From: Saprospiraceae bacterium
GTDB taxonomy: Bacteria; Bacteroidota; Bacteroidia; Chitinophagales; Saprospiraceae
Length of the DNA: 64,000 nt
Direction of reading: 5' to 3'
NCBI GenBank assembly: GCA_019187225.1
Contig: JABAQQ010000013.1
Location: forward strand, 338,066-402,065
Positions 56,104 through 64,000 of the stretch are shown here, piece by piece (the first letter of the stretch is position 1; each line of letters begins with the position of its first letter). The notes under the pieces were generated by a model that worked only from the letters and a program-made list of their open reading frames with translations, ran no database searches and was not told the DNA's origin. A program made the translations under genes and the position numbers.

Positions 56104-57741
56104 TTGCGTCACGTGTTCCACTTCGACCTCGACAAAATTCTCGACCAGTTCGCCTACCACCCGGAGTCGCCGCTGATCTTCAGCAGCGGCCTTTTTTTGT
56201 TTTTGTTCCTGGGTTTTCTGCTGGTTTACAAATTGTTGCAACCGCATGAGCGGTTGCGCATCCTGTGGTGCACGATTTTTTCGGTGTATTTCTACTACAA
56301 AAGCAGCGGCATTTTTTTCCTGTTGCTGGTGGCGAGCGTCGTCGTGGACTTCAACCTGGCGAAATGGATCGAGCAGGCGAAAACGAAACGGTCGAAAACG
56401 TGGCTGCTGGTGTTGAGTCTTGTAGCCAATCTCGGCATGTTGGTATATTTCAAATACACCAACTACTTCGCCGAGCTCTGGAACGGCGCGACAGGCATGG
56501 GCATCGGTCCCTTCGACATTTTCCTGCCGGTGGGCATTTCATTTTTTACCTTCCAGTCGCTGAGCTATACGATCGATGTGTACCGGGGGCAGTTGAAGGC
56601 GCTCGACGACATTTGGGATTACGCCTTTTTCGTCACATTTTTCCCCCAGATGGTCGCGGGACCGATCGTGCGGGCAGCGGATTTTTTGCCGCAGATACAC
56701 CGGCCCTTGTGGGTATCGAAAGAAGATTTCGGGCGGGGGATATTCCTGTTCTGCATTGGTTTGTTCAAAAAAGCCGTCATTTCGGATTATATCAGCGTCA
56801 ATTTTGTCGAGCGCGTGTTCGAGTCACCGCAGCAGTACACCGGACTGGAAAACCTGATGGGCGTGTACGGTTACGCCCTGCAGATTTACTGCGATTTCAG
56901 CGGCTATACCGATATGGCCATCGGTATCGGGCTGCTGCTGGGTTTTCATTTTCCCATCAATTTTGATTCGCCCTACCAATCATTGAGCATTACCGAATTC
57001 TGGCGGCGCTGGCATATTTCGCTCTCGACCTGGCTGCGCGACTATTTGTATATTCCGCTCGGCGGCAGCCGGGGGAGCAGTCTCGGCACCTGGTTGTTCC
57101 CGGGTATGTTTTTGGCCATTTCATTCGGAGCAGCGGTTATGGCCGGCGTGAGCATGGACGAATGGGTGTGGCTGGGTTTGTGGTCGGTGGTGACGGTTAT
57201 CATGGTTCTGCCGCCTTTGTTGCAGCGCGACCGGCAGGCGCTGGCGACCAATTTCAACCTGTTCGCAACGATGTTGCTGGGGGGGCTTTGGCACGGCGCA
57301 GCCACGCGGTTTATCATCTGGGGCGCTTTGCACGGACTGGCCCTGTCGGCAGAAAGGTGGGTGAAAGCGATGATCCCCGGCAAACACGGGGGTTGGCGCC
57401 GGACCTTGGGCGGTTTGTGGACTTTTCACTTTGTTTGTTTTTGCTGGATATTTTTCCGGGCTGAAAACCTCGATATCGCAAACGCCATGCTCCGTCAGAT
57501 CGCTTTCGACTTCAGGCCGGAGATTTTTCCGGATTTTCTGGAGGGTTACGCGCCGGTGGTGTTCTGGATGGCGCTGGGTTTCGGGCTGCATCTGTTGCCA
57601 AAGTCATTGGAATTGAGAGCGCAGGATGCCGTCACGGCGCTGCCGCTCGCAGGCAAGGCTGTTTTACTCACCCTGTTCATTGCCCTCGTGATGCAGGTAA
57701 AATCATCGGACGTGCAGCCGTTTATTTATTTCCAGTTTTAG
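56104..57741 (+). CDS. MBOAT-family O-acyltransferase (AlgI-like)
   Basis: 545 residues from TTG 56104; GTG at 56113 (MFHFDLDKILDQFAYHPESP) is equally possible, and no ATG is available. About ten transmembrane helices of the MBOAT family, with GISFFTFQSLSYTIDVYRGQ, FFPQMVAGPIVRAADFLPQI, YCDFSGYTDMAIGIG and LLGGLWHGAATRFIIWGALHG with its invariant His. It acetylates or acylates secreted polymers with a periplasmic partner. The usual AlgX/AlgJ-type SGNH partner is not adjacent here. It overlaps the 3' end of the next gene by 20 bp on the other strand. Confidence 0.93.
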   Translation: MRHVFHFDLDKILDQFAYHPESPLIFSSGLFLFLFLGFLLVYKLLQPHERLRILWCTIFSVYFYYKSSGIFFLLLVASVVVDFNLAKWIEQAKTKRSKTWLLVLSLVANLGMLVYFKYTNYFAELWNGATGMGIGPFDIFLPVGISFFTFQSLSYTIDVYRGQLKALDDIWDYAFFVTFFPQMVAGPIVRAADFLPQIHRPLWVSKEDFGRGIFLFCIGLFKKAVISDYISVNFVERVFESPQQYTGLENLMGVYGYALQIYCDFSGYTDMAIGIGLLLGFHFPINFDSPYQSLSITEFWRRWHISLSTWLRDYLYIPLGGSRGSSLGTWLFPGMFLAISFGAAVMAGVSMDEWVWLGLWSVVTVIMVLPPLLQRDRQALATNFNLFATMLLGGLWHGAATRFIIWGALHGLALSAERWVKAMIPGKHGGWRRTLGGLWTFHFVCFCWIFFRAENLDIANAMLRQIAFDFRPEIFPDFLEGYAPVVFWMALGFGLHLLPKSLELRAQDAVTALPLAGKAVLLTLFIALVMQVKSSDVQPFIYFQF

Positions 57742-59410
57742 AAGTTGCGAGTTCGCCGCATTTTTCGAGCAACCATTCTTTTTCAATCACATGGGCGGCG
57801 GCAATTTCTGTGCGCAAAGCGTCCAGTTTGCCGTTGATGTCCGCATTTTTCAGCCTTTTTTTCATTTTTAGTTTAAAAATCTCCCTCGCGTATTTGGCAA
57901 AATGCAAGTGCGCTTCCCGGTCATGTGGTTTCATGGTCGTGTCTTCTTTGATGCGTTTGGTGGTGGCACGCACCATGTTGATGCCTTGTTCATCTTCCAG
58001 CGTGTCCAATTCGTAGCAGATTTTCACATTGACCAGCATGGCTATGGCGTACATTTGGAAGTCGCCAAAGTCACCGTACACATAGTAATGCGGCAGCGTT
58101 TGCGCTGCCTCGGCATATCGCTTTTGCGCCAGGCGTACCATTGCCCACCAAAGCGCCCGGCAAATATCCGGTTGATTGGTACCTGTAATCCGGTGTTCGT
58201 ATTCGAGCAGTATTTGTTCTGCTTTTTCAAGTTTCAAGAGTTTTAGGGAGGTTAAAACAATATTGAGCAGATGGCTGGCAGGGATAAATTCATGGGGTTT
58301 CATGTTTTGGAGTTGGTCAGTTTGCAAGTTGAAGATACGCTCTACAAAACGCAGGTCACGTGTTTGACGATAACGTCGGGCCCAATGGGCTCTGAGCATA
58401 ATCTTAAAATCACTGACGCGGGAAGCAGTTATTGAATGGCCGTATTCACGCAGTAAGATGTCAAAAAGATCGGCAGCCTGATCGGCTAATGATGAATCAT
58501 CGAGGGTTAAAAAATGCAATAGGGCGCTGTACATTTGGATACCAGGAGTTAGCATGTAGTTTTTTTGGTTCAGGAAATCAAGCAACAAGAGCGTGATTTC
58601 CCGGTTGTAATTGAGTCGCTGGTACTCTTGTGAATCCGGCGGATAAGGAAGGGCCAATTTTTCCTGATGGGACAGGCGGCTCATCATATCCAATTTTGTC
58701 AAAAGGTAAAACTTATCAAGTTCTTCAATTGCTACCAGCAGGTTGTCATCACCTGCACGCTTATCAGAAAGACTATCGAACAAGGCTTTTTCCTGCTCGA
58801 GCAAAAAACGAAAGTAAAGAATATCGTTAAAATCATATTCGTCGTATTGACTAAAATTACTTTGTCTGGCCAGCGCCTCTTTCAGTTTCCGGTATTGGTT
58901 CAGAAAAAAATTTTCAACATGGCGCGGTGTTTTTCCTTTTTCAGTTTTGGTATCCGTCTTTTCCTGGGCAATATTATATGTGGCGTTGGGGTGCTGATGT
59001 AACCGTTCGCTGTAAAACCGCATCAACGCCAATTGCTGCCGGGCAAAGCTGGTCAGATCGCCCGTTGATTCTTCTTCACGTACATCGGAAGATGATGTAA
59101 GACTCCCCTTTACTGCAAAATATTGGAAATGAATAAACTGACGAACAATGCGCATCAGTTGCGACATGGCTTTTTCCAATTCCAGCACGCTGTTTTTTCG
59201 TTCACCAAAGAGTTTTTGAGCGACAATCTCTTTTTTAAGTACTTCAGTGTCAAATTCGGGATAATGGGGTTTCAGGTACTCGAACAGGTTTTTTTTGTCG
59301 TGAAAGCGGTTGGCTTCGTTGAAAATGGGAGAGTCAACAAACAGGTGCAGGCGTTCGATCTCGGCCTGAGTAAATAAACGCAGGGTTTGGAGCAGGGTGC
59401 TGTTTTGCAT
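57722..59410 (-). CDS. Module protein A1, ~560 residues, unknown function
   Basis: 562 residues, no signal peptide or membrane segment: probably cytoplasmic and mostly alpha-helical. The start LLQTLRLFTQAEIERLHLFV runs into DSPIFNEANRFHDKKNLFEY. Later KNSVLELEKAMSQLM, RQFIHFQYFAVKG and KLDMMSRLSHQEKLALPYP. All have counterparts in the paralogue at 61276-62961. Families starting with L..F...E...F..F..SPIFN occur in many copies in Bacteroidota and have no known function. It is divergent from the secreted FN3 protein, with the shared upstream element between them. Confidence 0.85.
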   Translation of the reverse strand: MQNSTLLQTLRLFTQAEIERLHLFVDSPIFNEANRFHDKKNLFEYLKPHYPEFDTEVLKKEIVAQKLFGERKNSVLELEKAMSQLMRIVRQFIHFQYFAVKGSLTSSSDVREEESTGDLTSFARQQLALMRFYSERLHQHPNATYNIAQEKTDTKTEKGKTPRHVENFFLNQYRKLKEALARQSNFSQYDEYDFNDILYFRFLLEQEKALFDSLSDKRAGDDNLLVAIEELDKFYLLTKLDMMSRLSHQEKLALPYPPDSQEYQRLNYNREITLLLLDFLNQKNYMLTPGIQMYSALLHFLTLDDSSLADQAADLFDILLREYGHSITASRVSDFKIMLRAHWARRYRQTRDLRFVERIFNLQTDQLQNMKPHEFIPASHLLNIVLTSLKLLKLEKAEQILLEYEHRITGTNQPDICRALWWAMVRLAQKRYAEAAQTLPHYYVYGDFGDFQMYAIAMLVNVKICYELDTLEDEQGINMVRATTKRIKEDTTMKPHDREAHLHFAKYAREIFKLKMKKRLKNADINGKLDALRTEIAAAHVIEKEWLLEKCGELATSKTGNK

Positions 59411-59440
59411 AAAGGCGGGGGATGAGCGAACGTATTGTTG

Positions 59441-59495
59441 TGGAAGTAATCGGGATTTTTGTGCAAATTTAATTCGCTACTGCCAACTACTTTTG
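59441..59495 (+). promoter_or_regulatory. Module promoter copy 1 (upstream of FN3 protein)
   Basis: Upstream element TGGAAGTAATCG (59441-59452) and -7 box TACTTTTG (59488-59495). The -33 region is degenerate. It lies between A1 and the FN3 gene and could influence both strands. Confidence 0.6.
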
Positions 59496-59513
59496 TTCAA
59501 AAATCTGTACATC

Positions 59514-60305
59514 ATGAAATTTGATCGAATTTTCCCCTATCTGATCGCACTGTTTCTGGGCTTTGCCATCGGTTATCAGGTCGCCCTACAAATGGAACCC
59601 TCAGCCGATTGCCCGGCTCCCGACAGCTTGGCAGAGGTTATGGACACAGAAGCCTCTGTCACCGTTTCCTGGAATCAGGTCCAGGACGCAAGATACTACA
59701 CCGTCATCGCCCGCGACTCTGCCGCGCTGACGGATGTGGCCAGCAGCATCGTGGTGGAAGGCACTTCGGCCGTTATTCCCGATCTGAAACCCCAAACCGG
59801 ATACGCCGTTGACGTATTCACCATCTGTGAAAAAGACGGCAAGTTTTACATCAGCGAAACGCCGACCACGATTGGGGTGTCAACCGGTTGGATCGTAACG
59901 GATGATGTAGTGCTGCTCCAGGGTCAACCCTGTCCGTTCAGTATATGCACCACCAATGTCGCCGCCCCGAACAACTGTTTTGACTGGGGTGCCGGCACAC
60001 AATATTACCAGGTCGAGATCGTGCACAATGCGAGCACCACGGTGGTAGCGCGGACTTATCTGGAAAAATCGGTCACGGGAGCCGGTATTCGGATCAACAA
60101 CTACAACACAGCCACTTGTGGAGGGCTTCCTGTACTGGAGGCGCCTGTTGAGTGCCCTACATTTAGTTTCTGTGGTGATTTCACACAACCCGGCACATCC
60201 ACCACGGTGAATTACAAACTCACAGCAAGTCTGACGCAATGCTGCCTCGATCTGCCCGCCGCCGACTACACGCTGCGGGTGCGCTCCTGCAACATTGATG
60301 AGTAA
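59514..60305 (+). CDS. Secreted protein with fibronectin type III domain
   Basis: 263 residues from the ATG at 59514 (MKFDRIFPYLIALFLGFAIG), giving a signal anchor; earlier frame has no start features. Residues about 35-120 form a fibronectin type III-like domain (SVTVSWNQVQDARYYTVIAR...LKPQTGYAVDVFTICE). The C-terminal part is Cys-rich (CPFSICTTN, CPTFSFCGDF, TQCCLDLPAADYTLRVRSC). Probably exported and disulfide-bonded; unknown function. It lies in the A/B module. Its stop overlaps a small open frame (TAATG). Confidence 0.75.
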   Translation: MKFDRIFPYLIALFLGFAIGYQVALQMEPSADCPAPDSLAEVMDTEASVTVSWNQVQDARYYTVIARDSAALTDVASSIVVEGTSAVIPDLKPQTGYAVDVFTICEKDGKFYISETPTTIGVSTGWIVTDDVVLLQGQPCPFSICTTNVAAPNNCFDWGAGTQYYQVEIVHNASTTVVARTYLEKSVTGAGIRINNYNTATCGGLPVLEAPVECPTFSFCGDFTQPGTSTTVNYKLTASLTQCCLDLPAADYTLRVRSCNIDE

Positions 60306-60466
60306 TGCCGGAAATGCTATGGAAGTATGTGCTGAAACCGTGTTTGTTTTTACTTTCAGGAGGATGGCATCTTTGTCCTGTCAACACGATCGAAGCAAAT
60401 GATCTTCCCAAAAAGACCGGCCCCAAAAAACCGAATTTTATCAACCGCCTTATTTATCTTCCGTAA
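60305..60466 (+). CDS. Possible 53-residue peptide overlapping the FN3 gene
   Basis: ATG at 60305 overlaps the FN3 stop by one base (TAATG), suggesting translational coupling. The product has a hydrophobic core (KYVLKPCLFLLSGGWHLCPV) and a basic, Pro/Lys-rich tail (DLPKKTGPKKPNFINRL). But the second module promoter lies inside it, so the open frame may be accidental. Confidence 0.3.
   Translation: MPEMLWKYVLKPCLFLLSGGWHLCPVNTIEANDLPKKTGPKKPNFINRLIYLP
60320..60375 (+). promoter_or_regulatory. Module promoter copy 2 (upstream of B1)
   Basis: Upstream element TGGAAGTATGTGC (60320-60332), -33 TTTG (60343-60346), 21 bases, -7 CATCTTTG (60368-60375), then GTCAAC at the likely start site. B1 begins 106 bp after the -7 box. 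Confidence 0.7.
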
Positions 60467-60481
60467 TCACCTACCCTACCA

Positions 60482-60874
60482 ATGAACGCTGTTTTAATCG
60501 AAGTCCAATGCACCCTCGGCAACGACGCGCAGCAATGGAGCGGCATCCGCAGCATCGCGCTCGAAATCGGTTACCCCGGCCTGAAAGGCCAAACCCTGTG
60601 GAAGAACATCGGCTGGTTGCGGGAACGCACGGCTCCGGCAACCAGCACTTCCGCCCACTCCATGTGGGACCGCGCCATGCCGGAGCACATTCTGGTGTTC
60701 GACTTTCACCCGTTTTTGCTGCCCGGCCATGCCGAACCTGAAAAATCGTATTGCATCCGGCGGATCATCACCCACGAGGATGGCCGCCGCAAAGTATCGA
60801 GACCCATTACCGTGCGGGAAGGGAAGTACAGCGATGCGTTTTTTTCCTGTACGCCGACGTATCCCGAACCGTAA
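60482..60874 (+). CDS. Module protein B1, ~130 residues, unknown function
   Basis: 130 residues, no signal peptide. Conserved with the paralogue at 63470: IEVQCTLGNDAQQWSGIRSI, LEIGYPGLKGQTLWKNIGWL, ILVFDFHPFLLPG, RKVSRPITVREGKYSDAFFS. The spacing of aromatic and charged residues looks like a small beta-rich domain. I recognise no family. It lies directly behind a module promoter and next to the ~560-residue genes, so the two kinds of protein probably work together. Confidence 0.8.
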   Translation: MNAVLIEVQCTLGNDAQQWSGIRSIALEIGYPGLKGQTLWKNIGWLRERTAPATSTSAHSMWDRAMPEHILVFDFHPFLLPGHAEPEKSYCIRRIITHEDGRRKVSRPITVREGKYSDAFFSCTPTYPEP

Positions 60875-61275
60875 GTGAAAGTTGAAAAGAACAATTTTTA
60901 CCGGAGTGCAAAAAAACGCTGTGGAAGTAACCGCCGATTTCGTGTTTGATTTTGGCGAACTACCTGTTGACCTTTGTACCGTTAATCCCAAGAAACCATC
61001 CATCATCAAAAAGAACCACTTCAATACAACCGACGGCTAATATCCCAAAGGTAGTTTCCTGATCCAAATTGAAAACTAAAATCCTGATTGACCAAACCCC
61101 ATGACCAGCCCTTTTAAACCGCCCCAATGACCCCATTAACCTTTTTTTGAAACATCCACACCCTAATGCCGGCGGGCGCTCCCAAACGCTCGCCGGCAGA
61201 ACTGACTCCAAATCCCTGTTTTACCTCAGTCCAGATGAGCAATCGCCCGTTTCTTTACCCAAGGAAGCGGGCATT
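60875..61275. other. Gap after B1, with module promoter copy 3
   Basis: 401 bp without a recognisable gene. It holds the third promoter copy (60922-60976), then sequence resembling the region after copy 2, and a run of CCATCCATCATC. The gene this promoter once served may have been lost. Confidence 0.5.
60922..60976 (+). promoter_or_regulatory. Module promoter copy 3 (no obvious gene)
   Basis: Upstream element TGGAAGTAACCGC (60922-60934), -33 TTTG (60945-60948), 20 bases, -7 GACCTTTG (60969-60976), then GTTAAT. No open frame of useful length follows on this strand before the A2 gene end. Confidence 0.65.
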
Positions 61276-62961
61276 TTATTTGGCTTTGGCCAGTTCGCGG
61301 ATCTTTTCTTCGAGCCATTCCCAATCCACCGTCGGGTTCGAGTCCAGCATTTCCTGAATTTCATTCAAATCCTTCGAGATATCTGCGTTGCGGCGGGTTT
61401 CTTTTTTGGTTTTCAGATGGAACAATTTGCGGGCGGTCCGGAAAAACCGCAGGCGTTCGTCGCGGCGCTCCTTCGGCAGATCGCGGTTGCGCTCGATGCG
61501 CGCCATACAATTGCGGATGAGGTTGTCGTCCAGGGCGTTCAGTTCGTATTGTATCTTCACGTCGGTAGCGGCAGCCACGGCGAAGAAATAAACATCGTCC
61601 ATATCGCTGTACCTGGCGTAGTCGGGCATCGTATCGGCGGCTTTCCGGTATTCTTCTTCAGCAAAATACAACATGGCCCACCAGATGCGCACGGCGTATT
61701 TGGGATGGGGGCGGCCGCGGGGCGTTTTGGCGCCCGGCTCTTCGTTCAAAGCGCCGGCGTATTCGCGCAGGAATTGAACTGCCCAGGCGATCTTGTGCAG
61801 TTTAAGCGCTGTGTTGAGCATGTTGGTCACCTGGATCATCGGCAGGTTTTTATGGGCGGGCAGGCGCTGGAGTTGCTCGCGGTGCATCCCGTGCAGGCGT
61901 CCGATGAACACGGGGTCTTTGGTGTGGCGATAGCGGCGGTTCCAGTAGCTGCGCAGCAGCACGTTGAAGTCGTCGAGCCGGTTTTTGGGCAGGGCATCTA
62001 TGTGCCGGGCGAGCATATCGGCGAAGCGGTCGGAGGCTTTGTCGGCGGCCTCGTTGTTTTCGGGTAAAAATTCGAGCAGCGTCGTATACAAAGCAATGCC
62101 AGGGGTATCCTGCCAGTATTGGTGTTGGCGCATCAGCCCGACCATTTCCAGAGTAATGTCGCGGTTGGCGATGAGGCGTTGGTATTTTTTGGGGTCATCG
62201 GCAAACATCTGTGCAATGTTCTGGTAATGAACCAGGCGGCTCATCAATTCCAGTTTGGAATACAGGTAGAAACGGTCGAGTTCTTCTAAGGCAGCCAGCA
62301 TATTCAGGTCGGCCTCGATCTCTTCCCGGTGATGGTCGTACAGTGCTTTTTCCTGTTCCACCAAGTATCGCAAAATGAGGTAGTCGCTGAATTCGTAATC
62401 TTCGAAGTGGTCGAACTTCCCTTGTCCGGTCATCAGTTCGCGCAATTCGGTATAGAGGTTCTGGAAATAATTTTCGGTGCGTTTCACCTTTTGTCCCTTG
62501 CCGGAAGCCGCAGTTTTCGCATTGGCGATGCCGCCCTTTTGATGGAGTCGCTCGCTGTAAAAGCGAAGCAAGGCCAGTTGCTGACGGGTATAATTGAGCA
62601 GCAACAGGGGTTTTTCGGAAAACTCTTTTTTAGAACTGCGGCGGACGGTTTTCCCGCCTTTTACGGCCGAATAACGGAAATTGATGAATTGTTTGAGGAT
62701 GTGCATCAATTCCGACATGGCTTTTTCCACCTCGCCGGCGGCGTTTTTCCTTTCCGGAAAAAGGATCTTTCCTGCCTCCTCTTTTGTCAGTTTTTCACTT
62801 TCAAAGTCGGGATAATACAGACGAATGTGTTCGAACAATCGCACGGTATCGTGATAGCGCGCCGCTTCATTGAATATCGGCGATGCCACGAAAAGGTAAA
62901 ATTGCTCGAATTCTTCGGGATCGAGCAATTGCAAAGAGCGGATGAGCGGACTGTCAAGCAT
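61276..62961 (-). CDS. Module protein A2, ~560 residues, paralogue of A1
   Basis: 561 residues, no signal or membrane segment. Aligns along its length with A1: LFVASPIFNEAARYHDTVRL, FPERKNAAGEVEKAMSELM, FINFRYSAVKG, LYSKLELMSRLVHYQ, SYWNRRYRHTKDPVFIGRL, WWAMLYFAEEEYRKAADTMP and the C-terminal TVDWEWLEEKIRELAK. Basic stretches (KKETRRNADISKDLNEIQ) suggest helical repeats. Function unknown. The 1.9-kb separation of the A1 and A2 genes, with a B gene associated with each, indicates module duplication. Confidence 0.85.
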   Translation of the reverse strand: MLDSPLIRSLQLLDPEEFEQFYLFVASPIFNEAARYHDTVRLFEHIRLYYPDFESEKLTKEEAGKILFPERKNAAGEVEKAMSELMHILKQFINFRYSAVKGGKTVRRSSKKEFSEKPLLLLNYTRQQLALLRFYSERLHQKGGIANAKTAASGKGQKVKRTENYFQNLYTELRELMTGQGKFDHFEDYEFSDYLILRYLVEQEKALYDHHREEIEADLNMLAALEELDRFYLYSKLELMSRLVHYQNIAQMFADDPKKYQRLIANRDITLEMVGLMRQHQYWQDTPGIALYTTLLEFLPENNEAADKASDRFADMLARHIDALPKNRLDDFNVLLRSYWNRRYRHTKDPVFIGRLHGMHREQLQRLPAHKNLPMIQVTNMLNTALKLHKIAWAVQFLREYAGALNEEPGAKTPRGRPHPKYAVRIWWAMLYFAEEEYRKAADTMPDYARYSDMDDVYFFAVAAATDVKIQYELNALDDNLIRNCMARIERNRDLPKERRDERLRFFRTARKLFHLKTKKETRRNADISKDLNEIQEMLDSNPTVDWEWLEEKIRELAKAK

Positions 62962-63469
62962 TTTTTTACGGCAGGTGAGGGGTAGTCTTGTTGGAACTTA
63001 TGGCATTCGGTGTGCCGCGTATTTTGGAAAGGACAGGGACTAAAACCGCACAAAAGTCTTTAAAACGGGCAAACCGGCCAATTTTTCGCAAAAAAAGATG
63101 AAACCCGGTTTTGGAAGTAAACGCAAAATGCATGTTTGCTTTCCCTGCCCTGCTGCCCCCACCTTTGTTTTGTCAACGATGATGAACGAGGTTGACAACC
63201 GTCAGAAATAGAATGTGAAAGCCCAACGGCCCTGAAAGCCGGAAAACAACTGAAAACCCTATCCACCTCAAACCGCCAGGCTTATGCGGGAAGCCCTCTG
63301 AAACCACCTGGCCATTACAACCTGACCGGCGCCACTCCAACTCCAAAAAACGTGTGCGAAAGATGAAAAGCGGGGGCGCCGGCAGGGGTCGGGGAGTTTA
63401 GATTGCAGATTGCGGATTGGAGTTGCTTCGCTCCAACATTTTTTCACCCCACAATAAAAGTTATGCTTC
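62962..63469. other. Gap between A2 and B2, 508 bp
   Basis: Holds module promoter copy 4 (63112-63167), a short ATGATGAACGAGGTTGAC frame with ten codons only, GATTGCAGATTGCGGATTGG words (about 63403-63422) and a TTGGAG...CTCCAA hairpin with a TTCG-type loop (about 63416-63436). No gene was recognised. Confidence 0.6.
63112..63167 (+). promoter_or_regulatory. Module promoter copy 4 (upstream of B2)
   Basis: Upstream element TGGAAGTAAACGC (63112-63124), -33 TTTG (63135-63138), 21 bases, -7 CACCTTTG (63160-63167), then GTCAAC. B2 starts about 300 bp downstream. Confidence 0.7.
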
Positions 63470-63865
63470 ATGACACCATTGGTAATCGAGGTTCGCTGCA
63501 ACCTCACACCCGAAAGTCCGCTTTGGCAGGACATCAACAGTCTGACGCTTGAGATCGGTTATCCCGGTCGCGGCGGTCAGATGCTCTGGAAACATATTGG
63601 CTGGCTGCGCGATCACGTAGTGCCCGCCGGAAAAAGCATCGCCCACGCTTTGTGGAATCAAACATCCGCCGGTCTGGTGCTCATCTTCGACTTCCTCCCG
63701 GTGATGCTGCCCAATAGTTCAGGCGTCAACAAAACATATCGCATCCGCAAAAAAATAAAAGCCGCCAACGGGCGGTCGCGCATATCAAGATCAGGTGTCC
63801 TGCAAGGGGAATATATGGACGAGCATTTTACCCTTTCGCCTAAGTACCCGGAAGATAGACATTGA
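63470..63865 (+). CDS. Module protein B2, ~130 residues, paralogue of B1
   Basis: 131 residues. Shares with B1: VIEVRCNLTPESPLWQDINS, LEIGYPGRGGQMLWKHIGWL, LVLIFDFLPVMLPN and RISRSGVLQGEYMDEHFTLS. No signal peptide. The stop codon TGA (63863-63865) lies inside the first unit of the 8-bp tandem array that runs off the window, so the extreme C-terminus (KYPEDRH) has been shaped by, or ends at, the repeat. Unknown function; pairs with A2. Confidence 0.8.
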   Translation: MTPLVIEVRCNLTPESPLWQDINSLTLEIGYPGRGGQMLWKHIGWLRDHVVPAGKSIAHALWNQTSAGLVLIFDFLPVMLPNSSGVNKTYRIRKKIKAANGRSRISRSGVLQGEYMDEHFTLSPKYPEDRH

Positions 63866-64000
63866 GATATTGAGATATTGAGATATTGAGATATTGAGAT
63901 ATTGAGATATTGAGATATTGAGATATTGAGATATTGAGATATTGAGATATTGAGATATTGAGATATTGAGATATTGAGATATTGAGATATTGAGATATTG
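63861..64000. repeat. Perfect 8-bp tandem array (ATTGAGAT), 17.5 copies, runs off the edge
   Basis: From 63861 to the end of the window the unit ATTGAGAT repeats without any mismatch, beginning in the last sense codon (CAT) and covering the stop codon of B2. True length is unknown because the window ends. Confidence 0.97.

Follow-up and report, generated by a model that had tools for sequence, protein, structure and literature searches.

Two side-by-side units of an undescribed gene module

The DNA analyzed here is a stretch of 64,000 nucleotides from a Saprospiraceae bacterium (contig JABAQQ010000013.1), referred to as the window, in which two units of a gene module lie side by side. Each unit comprises a gene for a protein A (A1, A2) on one strand and a gene for a protein B (B1, B2) on the other, and the module carries four copies of a promoter box, one of them degenerate (Table 1). 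The four open reading frames lie where a first-pass annotation, made from the sequence alone, had placed them. The secreted FN3-type protein that it assigned to the first unit is borne out by an fn3 match (E 1.7e-5, for a query started two codons upstream of the ATG at 59514 in the same frame) and by a single hydrophobic stretch at the N-terminus. Additional to that annotation are the promoter element in its four copies, a predicted transcript with a terminator between B1 and A2, and a B2 leader with a conserved stem. We tentatively propose that A regulates the transcript divergent to its own gene through the promoter box. Labels beginning with L and G denote loci and genomes of this analysis, and C denotes a contig.

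Table 1. Features of the module and its flank (window positions)
Feature	Positions	Strand	Description
MBOAT O-acyltransferase	56104..57741	+	convergent with A1; outside the module
A1	57722..59410	-	562 amino acids, core A family: SPxFN N-terminal domain and helical solenoid
Degenerate copy of module promoter element	59441..59465	+	box TGGAAGTAATCGGGATTTTTGTGCA; before FN3 gene
FN3-type exported protein	59514..60305	+	N-terminal hydrophobic anchor, fn3 domain; between A1 and B1
Promoter element 2	60320..60375	+	TGGAAGT-N13-GTGTTTG and CATCTTTG; before B1
B1	60482..60874	+	130 amino acids, predicted beta-sandwich family without export signal
Promoter element 3	60922..60976	+	TGGAAGT-N13-GTGTTTG, then ACCTTTG one base closer; no same-strand gene behind
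Predicted short non-coding transcript	60976..61283	+	stem TGCCGGCGGGCG/CGCTCGCCGGCA; terminator next to A2 stop
Terminator-like hairpin	61245..61272	+	12 pairs, T-rich tail
A2	61276..62961	-	561 amino acids, paralogue of A1
Promoter element 4	63112..63167	+	TGGAAGT-N13-ATGTTTG and CACCTTTG; before B2 leader
Long B2 leader	63168..63469	+	related to same region in L065-L068
B2 leader stem	63321-63333 / 63375-63386		CCTGACCGGCGCC / GGCGCCGGCAGG
B2	63470..63865	+	131 amino acids, B family

A and B families differ in range

A1 and A2 share 40% identity across an alignment of 571 columns (E 1e-141), and B1 and B2 share 43% (E 2e-41). Neither family gave a Pfam or NCBIfam match reaching the curated cut-off, and profile, structure and fold searches with A and B recognized no known domain, in agreement with the initial description of a duplicated module of undescribed families. 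Its claim that both are under selection is also upheld: the ratio of nonsynonymous to synonymous substitution rates (dN/dS; NG86, five pairs of loci, synonymous sites partly saturated) is 0.04–0.12 for A and 0.11–0.20 for B, which indicates purifying selection.

A is part of a broader Bacteroidota family without a name, characterized by an SPxFN N-terminal domain and a helical solenoid. A single-protein search with A2 found matches in 38 of the 42 genomes of the genus, many of which are incomplete. Among 198 genomes of the phylum, a profile (A3) matched in seven at 1e-5 and a broader profile (A4) in 37, nine of which have long, strong matches; short A4 matches were not counted as A members. 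Both profiles combined yield nine A-family genes in the window genome. The AlphaFold model of A2 (38 sequences) is all helical, with a predicted local distance difference test (pLDDT) of 86 and a predicted template modeling score (pTM) of 0.78. Its weak Foldseek matches are TPR and PPR solenoids and other binding solenoids, among them NprR (E 0.19, probability 0.92) and RapF. No export signal was noticed in A. Most genomes of family f42 have one match each to an open reading frame of about 515–524 amino acids, which weakly fits the C-terminal part of the A profile and is possibly a distant relative.

B has a far narrower range. It was found in four of 298 genomes of the order, all four from the Saprospiraceae genus of the window, and 13 of the 42 genomes within that genus carry it (9 of 29 if only the more complete genomes are counted); the window genome has two copies, both inside the window. 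A pattern scan of 84,980 species returned nine B loci, all apparently loci of the genus search, and is not exhaustive since it missed G272, G254 and G301. These matches are filed as Saprospiraceae or Bacteroidota metagenome-assembled genomes and in one case as Thermoanaerobaculia; the label or binning of the latter (L155, JAKLJF010000295.1), which has an apparent counterpart in G319:C444, looks wrong. No B was found in the viral contigs, plasmids or phages searched. The B model (13 sequences) is a beta-sandwich (pLDDT 87, pTM 0.80) with no match in the PDB below E 0.001.

Of the 14 B genes, 13 share a contig with an A gene that points away from them, while the contig of the remaining one (G310) ends too early; in three of the 13 (window B1, G312 and G254) the FN3 gene stands between A and B. 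The first-pass view that A and B recur together thus stands within the genus and from the side of B. It does not stand as a general unit, since 18 of the 31 core A loci introduced below show no B, B was found in one genus only and the distant A genes pair with exported proteins instead. Judged by the refuting condition that the first-pass annotation had set, A homologues mostly occur apart from B, and B homologues lie mostly beside an A.

The adjacency of B to A could mean that the two proteins are partners in one complex. Their pairwise distances co-vary across 11 loci (Mantel r 0.81, a value reached in 0 of 5000 permutations), a correlation that shared species history might produce by itself. 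Against a complex, no B was found at 18 of 31 core and all 24 sampled non-core A loci, and it behaves like one of several occupants of a target slot, its scatter over a 33-row tree of A calling for four to five changes; from this scatter, B was probably gained early and often lost. We regard a common complex as very unlikely, and the view of B that fits best is that of an addition to the slot at the level of the genus, a predicted beta-sandwich without export signal. Nor do A and B form the co-transcribed adjacent genes of a toxin-antitoxin pair, being on opposite strands about 340–1260 bases apart.

A promoter box persists where the content of the divergent slot changes

We compared the 31 core A loci with upstream sequence, all from one Saprospiraceae genus. 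The slot divergent to A holds the FN3 gene (cluster c16 of an all-against-all comparison) followed by B at three loci, B alone at ten, and no gene that we could find at 18. The promoter heading the slot consists of TGGAAGT, 13 bases, RTGTTTG, which we take to be the Bacteroidota -33 element, and then CAYCTTTG. GGAAGT lies upstream of 28 of the 31 core A genes and the longer promoter pattern, with one letter of slack, is found at 25 of the 31 loci; the box persists where the target changes. Similar boxes are also seen by eye near the start of A itself at some loci. At L072 (G310:C215), a box promoter follows B and has the same orientation, which is also the arrangement at window 60922; a C/A-rich stretch with long tandem repeats, seen by eye, comes behind it.

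In the window genome, a looser box pattern has three matches, all in the module (reversed control 4). The fixed 27-base pattern, TGGAAGT-N13-RTGTTTG, occurs three times in the module and once at another place in this genome. Over the 42 genomes it has 36 matches, compared to five for the reversed control: 25 at A/B loci, one at a detached RNA-like locus (G302:C91) and ten elsewhere. The -7 element stands at one distance in 30 of the 31 A-linked promoters that fit the pattern with one letter of slack, and is one base off at window 60922; it is also present in the detached copy, and none of the six examined matches among the ten elsewhere has it. A distant A clade, about 25% identical (L096, L097, L098 twice, L172), carries TGGNAYA-N12-TGTCTTTG in the promoters of FN3 lipoproteins at the same position. 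This pattern has eight matches in the 42 genomes, five of them at these A loci, which had served to derive it, and the control gives 1.

One may argue that a factor other than A reads the element, which would then be a strong promoter kept by inheritance, with A as a bystander. Box copies without a directly divergent A (60320, 60922 and G302:C91) would fit such a promoter. The near-restriction of the box to A loci in the 42 genomes speaks against it, as does the distant A clade, where a related box holds the same position although the target is unrelated, and we give this explanation little probability.

Divergent neighbors outside the core lineage are mostly exported proteins

Non-core A loci were picked from match lists blind to their neighbors, giving 24 loci away from contig edges, with L166, L173 and L017 excluded as edges and L077 and L081 as A fragments. 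A simple hydrophobicity script found an export signal in the divergent neighbor at 19 of the 24, and three more exported partners recognized by eye (L019, L156 and L157) raise this to 22, while 31.6% of 136 divergent genes carry such a signal in the control. The enrichment corresponds to P about 2e-6, a value that is too low since several of the 24 loci are close kin. A type IX sorting tail is present in 13 of the 24 partners (19 scanned with Pfam; twelve tails above cut-off, one below), against a background of at least 150 such tails in the window genome of 7.18 Mb. No B was found at any of the 24 loci.

A later set of 20 regions was fetched after the pairing rule had been noted, seven of which contain an A gene with a profile score of at least 70. 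Five of the seven (L214, L215, L216, L218 and L219) have a divergent exported neighbor, with a tail in L214 and L215 and one below cut-off in L216. Among four weaker matches, L222 has an exported-looking divergent neighbor and L225 none; L232 and L233 are not A-like. In G044, a LytTR DNA-binding protein (L217:5501-5869) lies between the A-family gene and an exported protein. The divergent neighbors of two A-family genes in G498 encode small exported proteins that resemble each other, 73 and 79 amino acids long (L218:7323-7544 and L219:382-621), with VTPVxxPP-like tails at their ends. An exported protein bearing an IIITDDILML-like motif recurs next to A-family genes at L165, L168, L169 and L016:2724-3326; the L168 protein has no Pfam match.

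Exported partners, many of them with a type IX tail, would also suit a cytosolic chaperone or export adaptor that serves the partner surface protein and is no regulator. TPR-like solenoids commonly bind peptides, and the weak fold matches of A include other binding solenoids. However, no exported protein was found in the slot at 28 of the 31 core loci, yet A is under purifying selection there and the box is mostly kept, and the arrangement is divergent rather than same-strand. Since these 28 loci lack a recognizable exported client, a regulator with its target fits better than a chaperone with its client, and we consider the chaperone or adaptor role unlikely.

The gene-less stretch is a candidate non-coding RNA

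Where a core locus has no B, no conserved open reading frame is present in the region behind the promoter. We compared the first 276 bases behind the promoter between loci, as a whole and in 80-column windows. In eight pairs of gene-less loci, the best window is 81–99% and the whole stretch 58–87% identical, while the four-fold degenerate sites of A are 28–51% identical. In six pairs that include a B locus, the respective values are 79–89%, 44–73% and 33–57%; in L067, L068, L070 and L076 the compared stretch may extend into B, and in L013/L068 the whole stretch (0.44) falls below the four-fold sites (0.48). As a control, the best window over about 1650 columns of the A gene is 84–95% identical. 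The best window of the stretch exceeds that of A in six of the 14 pairs, namely five gene-less pairs (groups G1 and G2) and L085/L070, and its mean identity exceeds that of A in three of 14. The notion that the gene-less stretch is generally more conserved than the protein genes therefore holds only partly, and in the group of the window its best window is less conserved than that of A. The strongest pair, L085/L091, reaches 99% compared to 86% for the best A window and 28% at four-fold sites.

The stretch is unlikely to encode protein because close relatives differ by single-base indels. A small conserved open reading frame considered in its place (group G1, cluster c6) is broken by such indels, and the frame in which the box lies, as judged by eye, is not the same in all groups. 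Stems are nearly invariant within groups and differ between groups, and terminator-like hairpins are seen by eye downstream in several groups. For 17 of the 32 promoters folded, the z value of the lowest-energy 110-base window lies under -2, and the median is -2.2; these values are biased low since the window was chosen by energy before scoring, and some of the scored windows lie in B. In the window itself, the unit 60976-61283 has a fold z of -3.2, and its hairpin (61245..61272) has the longest stem among 15 terminator-like matches in 57000-64000, where shuffles give 10.5 matches. The B2 leader (63166-63469) shows no overall excess of fold stability (z +0.24), and for this reason only its central stem is put forward. 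Rfam gave no match at threshold in window 57000-64000, in 20 loci or in seven loci (E up to 1); L105 gave nine sub-threshold matches in the seven-locus search, all on one hairpin. A search for short words in the RNA returned TGAAAAC and similar words, too weak for use. Taken from the sequences compared, the gene-less stretch behind the box is a candidate for a new non-coding RNA.

A conserved stretch next to A raises the alternative that A is an RNA-binding protein that stabilizes or silences this RNA or the leader. The strong conservation of the stretch in some groups, its structure in several and a PPR-type solenoid among the weak fold matches are in line with this. On the other side, most non-core loci carry an ordinary gene for an exported protein, whose upstream region is short and shows no such RNA that we could see; what the core groups have in common is the DNA box rather than one RNA structure, and in G302 the RNA lies away from A. 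We judge an RNA-binding role distinctly unlikely.

Other features of the window

Relatives of the FN3 protein adjoin A in L069 and L073, and no type IX sorting tail was found in it (Pfam: fn3 and a weak NDNF match only; NCBIfam: none). The MBOAT acyltransferase is kept as a neighbor at many core A loci, but in G272 and G286 it does not lie beside the A2-type genes. Window 63857-64000 is occupied by 35 copies, in tandem, of an 8-base repeat (AGATATTG) that runs on to L013:8203 and overlaps the last B2 codons; a short N run seems to interrupt it, since translations across the repeat contain X. Six proteins gave no match to defense families in PADLOC, and none in PHROGs.

Discussion

That A regulates its divergent transcript through the box is the reading we favor, at somewhat less than an even chance, because A and the box stay constant while the part driven by the box varies. 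A would be a TPR-like protein of the cytosol that specifically regulates the transcript starting back-to-back with its own gene. The site of action, for A or for a factor tied to it, would be the TGGAAGT box, which precedes the -33 element by about 20 bases. In the sampled relatives, the target would mostly be an exported surface protein, often one secreted by the type IX system. In the core lineage of the genus, the promoter would have been kept and the target changed, to an exported FN3 protein with B, to B alone behind a leader, or to the conserved gene-less stretch, taken as a non-coding RNA. From this genomic pattern we infer that A reads the box and that the RNA is transcribed, and the same applies to what A senses and what B does.

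Several observations weigh against A as such a regulator. No helix-turn-helix or other DNA-binding family was found by Pfam in A1, A2 or 38 A members, residues 1–50, the most conserved stretch of A, carry a net negative charge, and the A2 model has no Foldseek match below E 0.001 (best E 0.06). A box was recognized in two A clades only, and in most A clades none was seen. Within the genus, L080 and L093 lack it, and the promoters of L087, L069, L073 and window 59441, which are not among the 31 A-linked pattern promoters, miss the strict pattern. Its ten matches elsewhere exceed the five of the reversed control, and at G302:C91 (L164:1207-2000) a box promoter stands before an RNA-like stretch and its terminator-like hairpin, with no A gene nearby in the sequence examined. 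Box enrichment also arises partly by construction since both patterns were derived from the loci found, so that the independent evidence lies in the rarity of the box elsewhere and the fixed distance of the -7 element. Furthermore, L018 and L174 have no exported divergent partner, and in the later set a LytTR gene comes first at L217 and a same-strand gene at L224. As a separate observation, L164:1207-2000 repeats a unit like CCTTGGCGGGGGA..GCCCCAAAAACCGGTGAAAACTAA.

The RRNPP regulators of Firmicutes (NprR, Rap, PlcR) combine a TPR-type solenoid with a separate N-terminal domain and are encoded next to a gene for an exported product. A resembles them in its predicted all-helical solenoid, possibly of the TPR type, with a separate N-terminal domain, in its place next to a gene for an exported product and in the weak fold matches to NprR and RapF. 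In contrast, A is longer and has no recognized helix-turn-helix, the fold match is not significant, and its partners are mostly large surface proteins rather than propeptides, the nearest being the partners of 73–79 amino acids in G498. Divergent pairs of a one-component regulator and its target share with A the conserved back-to-back arrangement and a box in the shared intergenic stretch, which may be operator-like and was recognized in two A clades only; they differ in that A has no known DNA-binding domain and that its targets would include a gene-less stretch. Many A partners carry the tail of type IX cargo (Por_Secre_tail, PF18962), whereas none was found in the FN3 protein of the window or in B. 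The candidate RNA is similar to the large structured RNAs of Rfam in being intergenic, with its own promoter, terminator-like hairpins and conserved stems, but it reaches the threshold of no Rfam family.

A more far-reaching proposal is that A founds a new Bacteroidota regulator family, each member dedicated to one divergent surface-protein gene, and that one Saprospiraceae genus has redirected this circuit to a conserved non-coding RNA of a new kind, about 300–700 bases long, with B expressed from the same transcript where present. We consider it somewhat unlikely that this holds in full. To our knowledge, little is known about how individual type IX cargo genes are switched. Those parts of the literature on type IX cargo control that were accessible to us hold nothing on a dedicated divergent partner, and the publications seen in part make no mention of the A family or the candidate RNA. 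A dedicated partner family, if true, would provide a handle on the switching of individual type IX cargo genes, and the gene-less stretch, better conserved than the adjacent A gene in two genome groups and without an Rfam match, may represent a new class of RNA.

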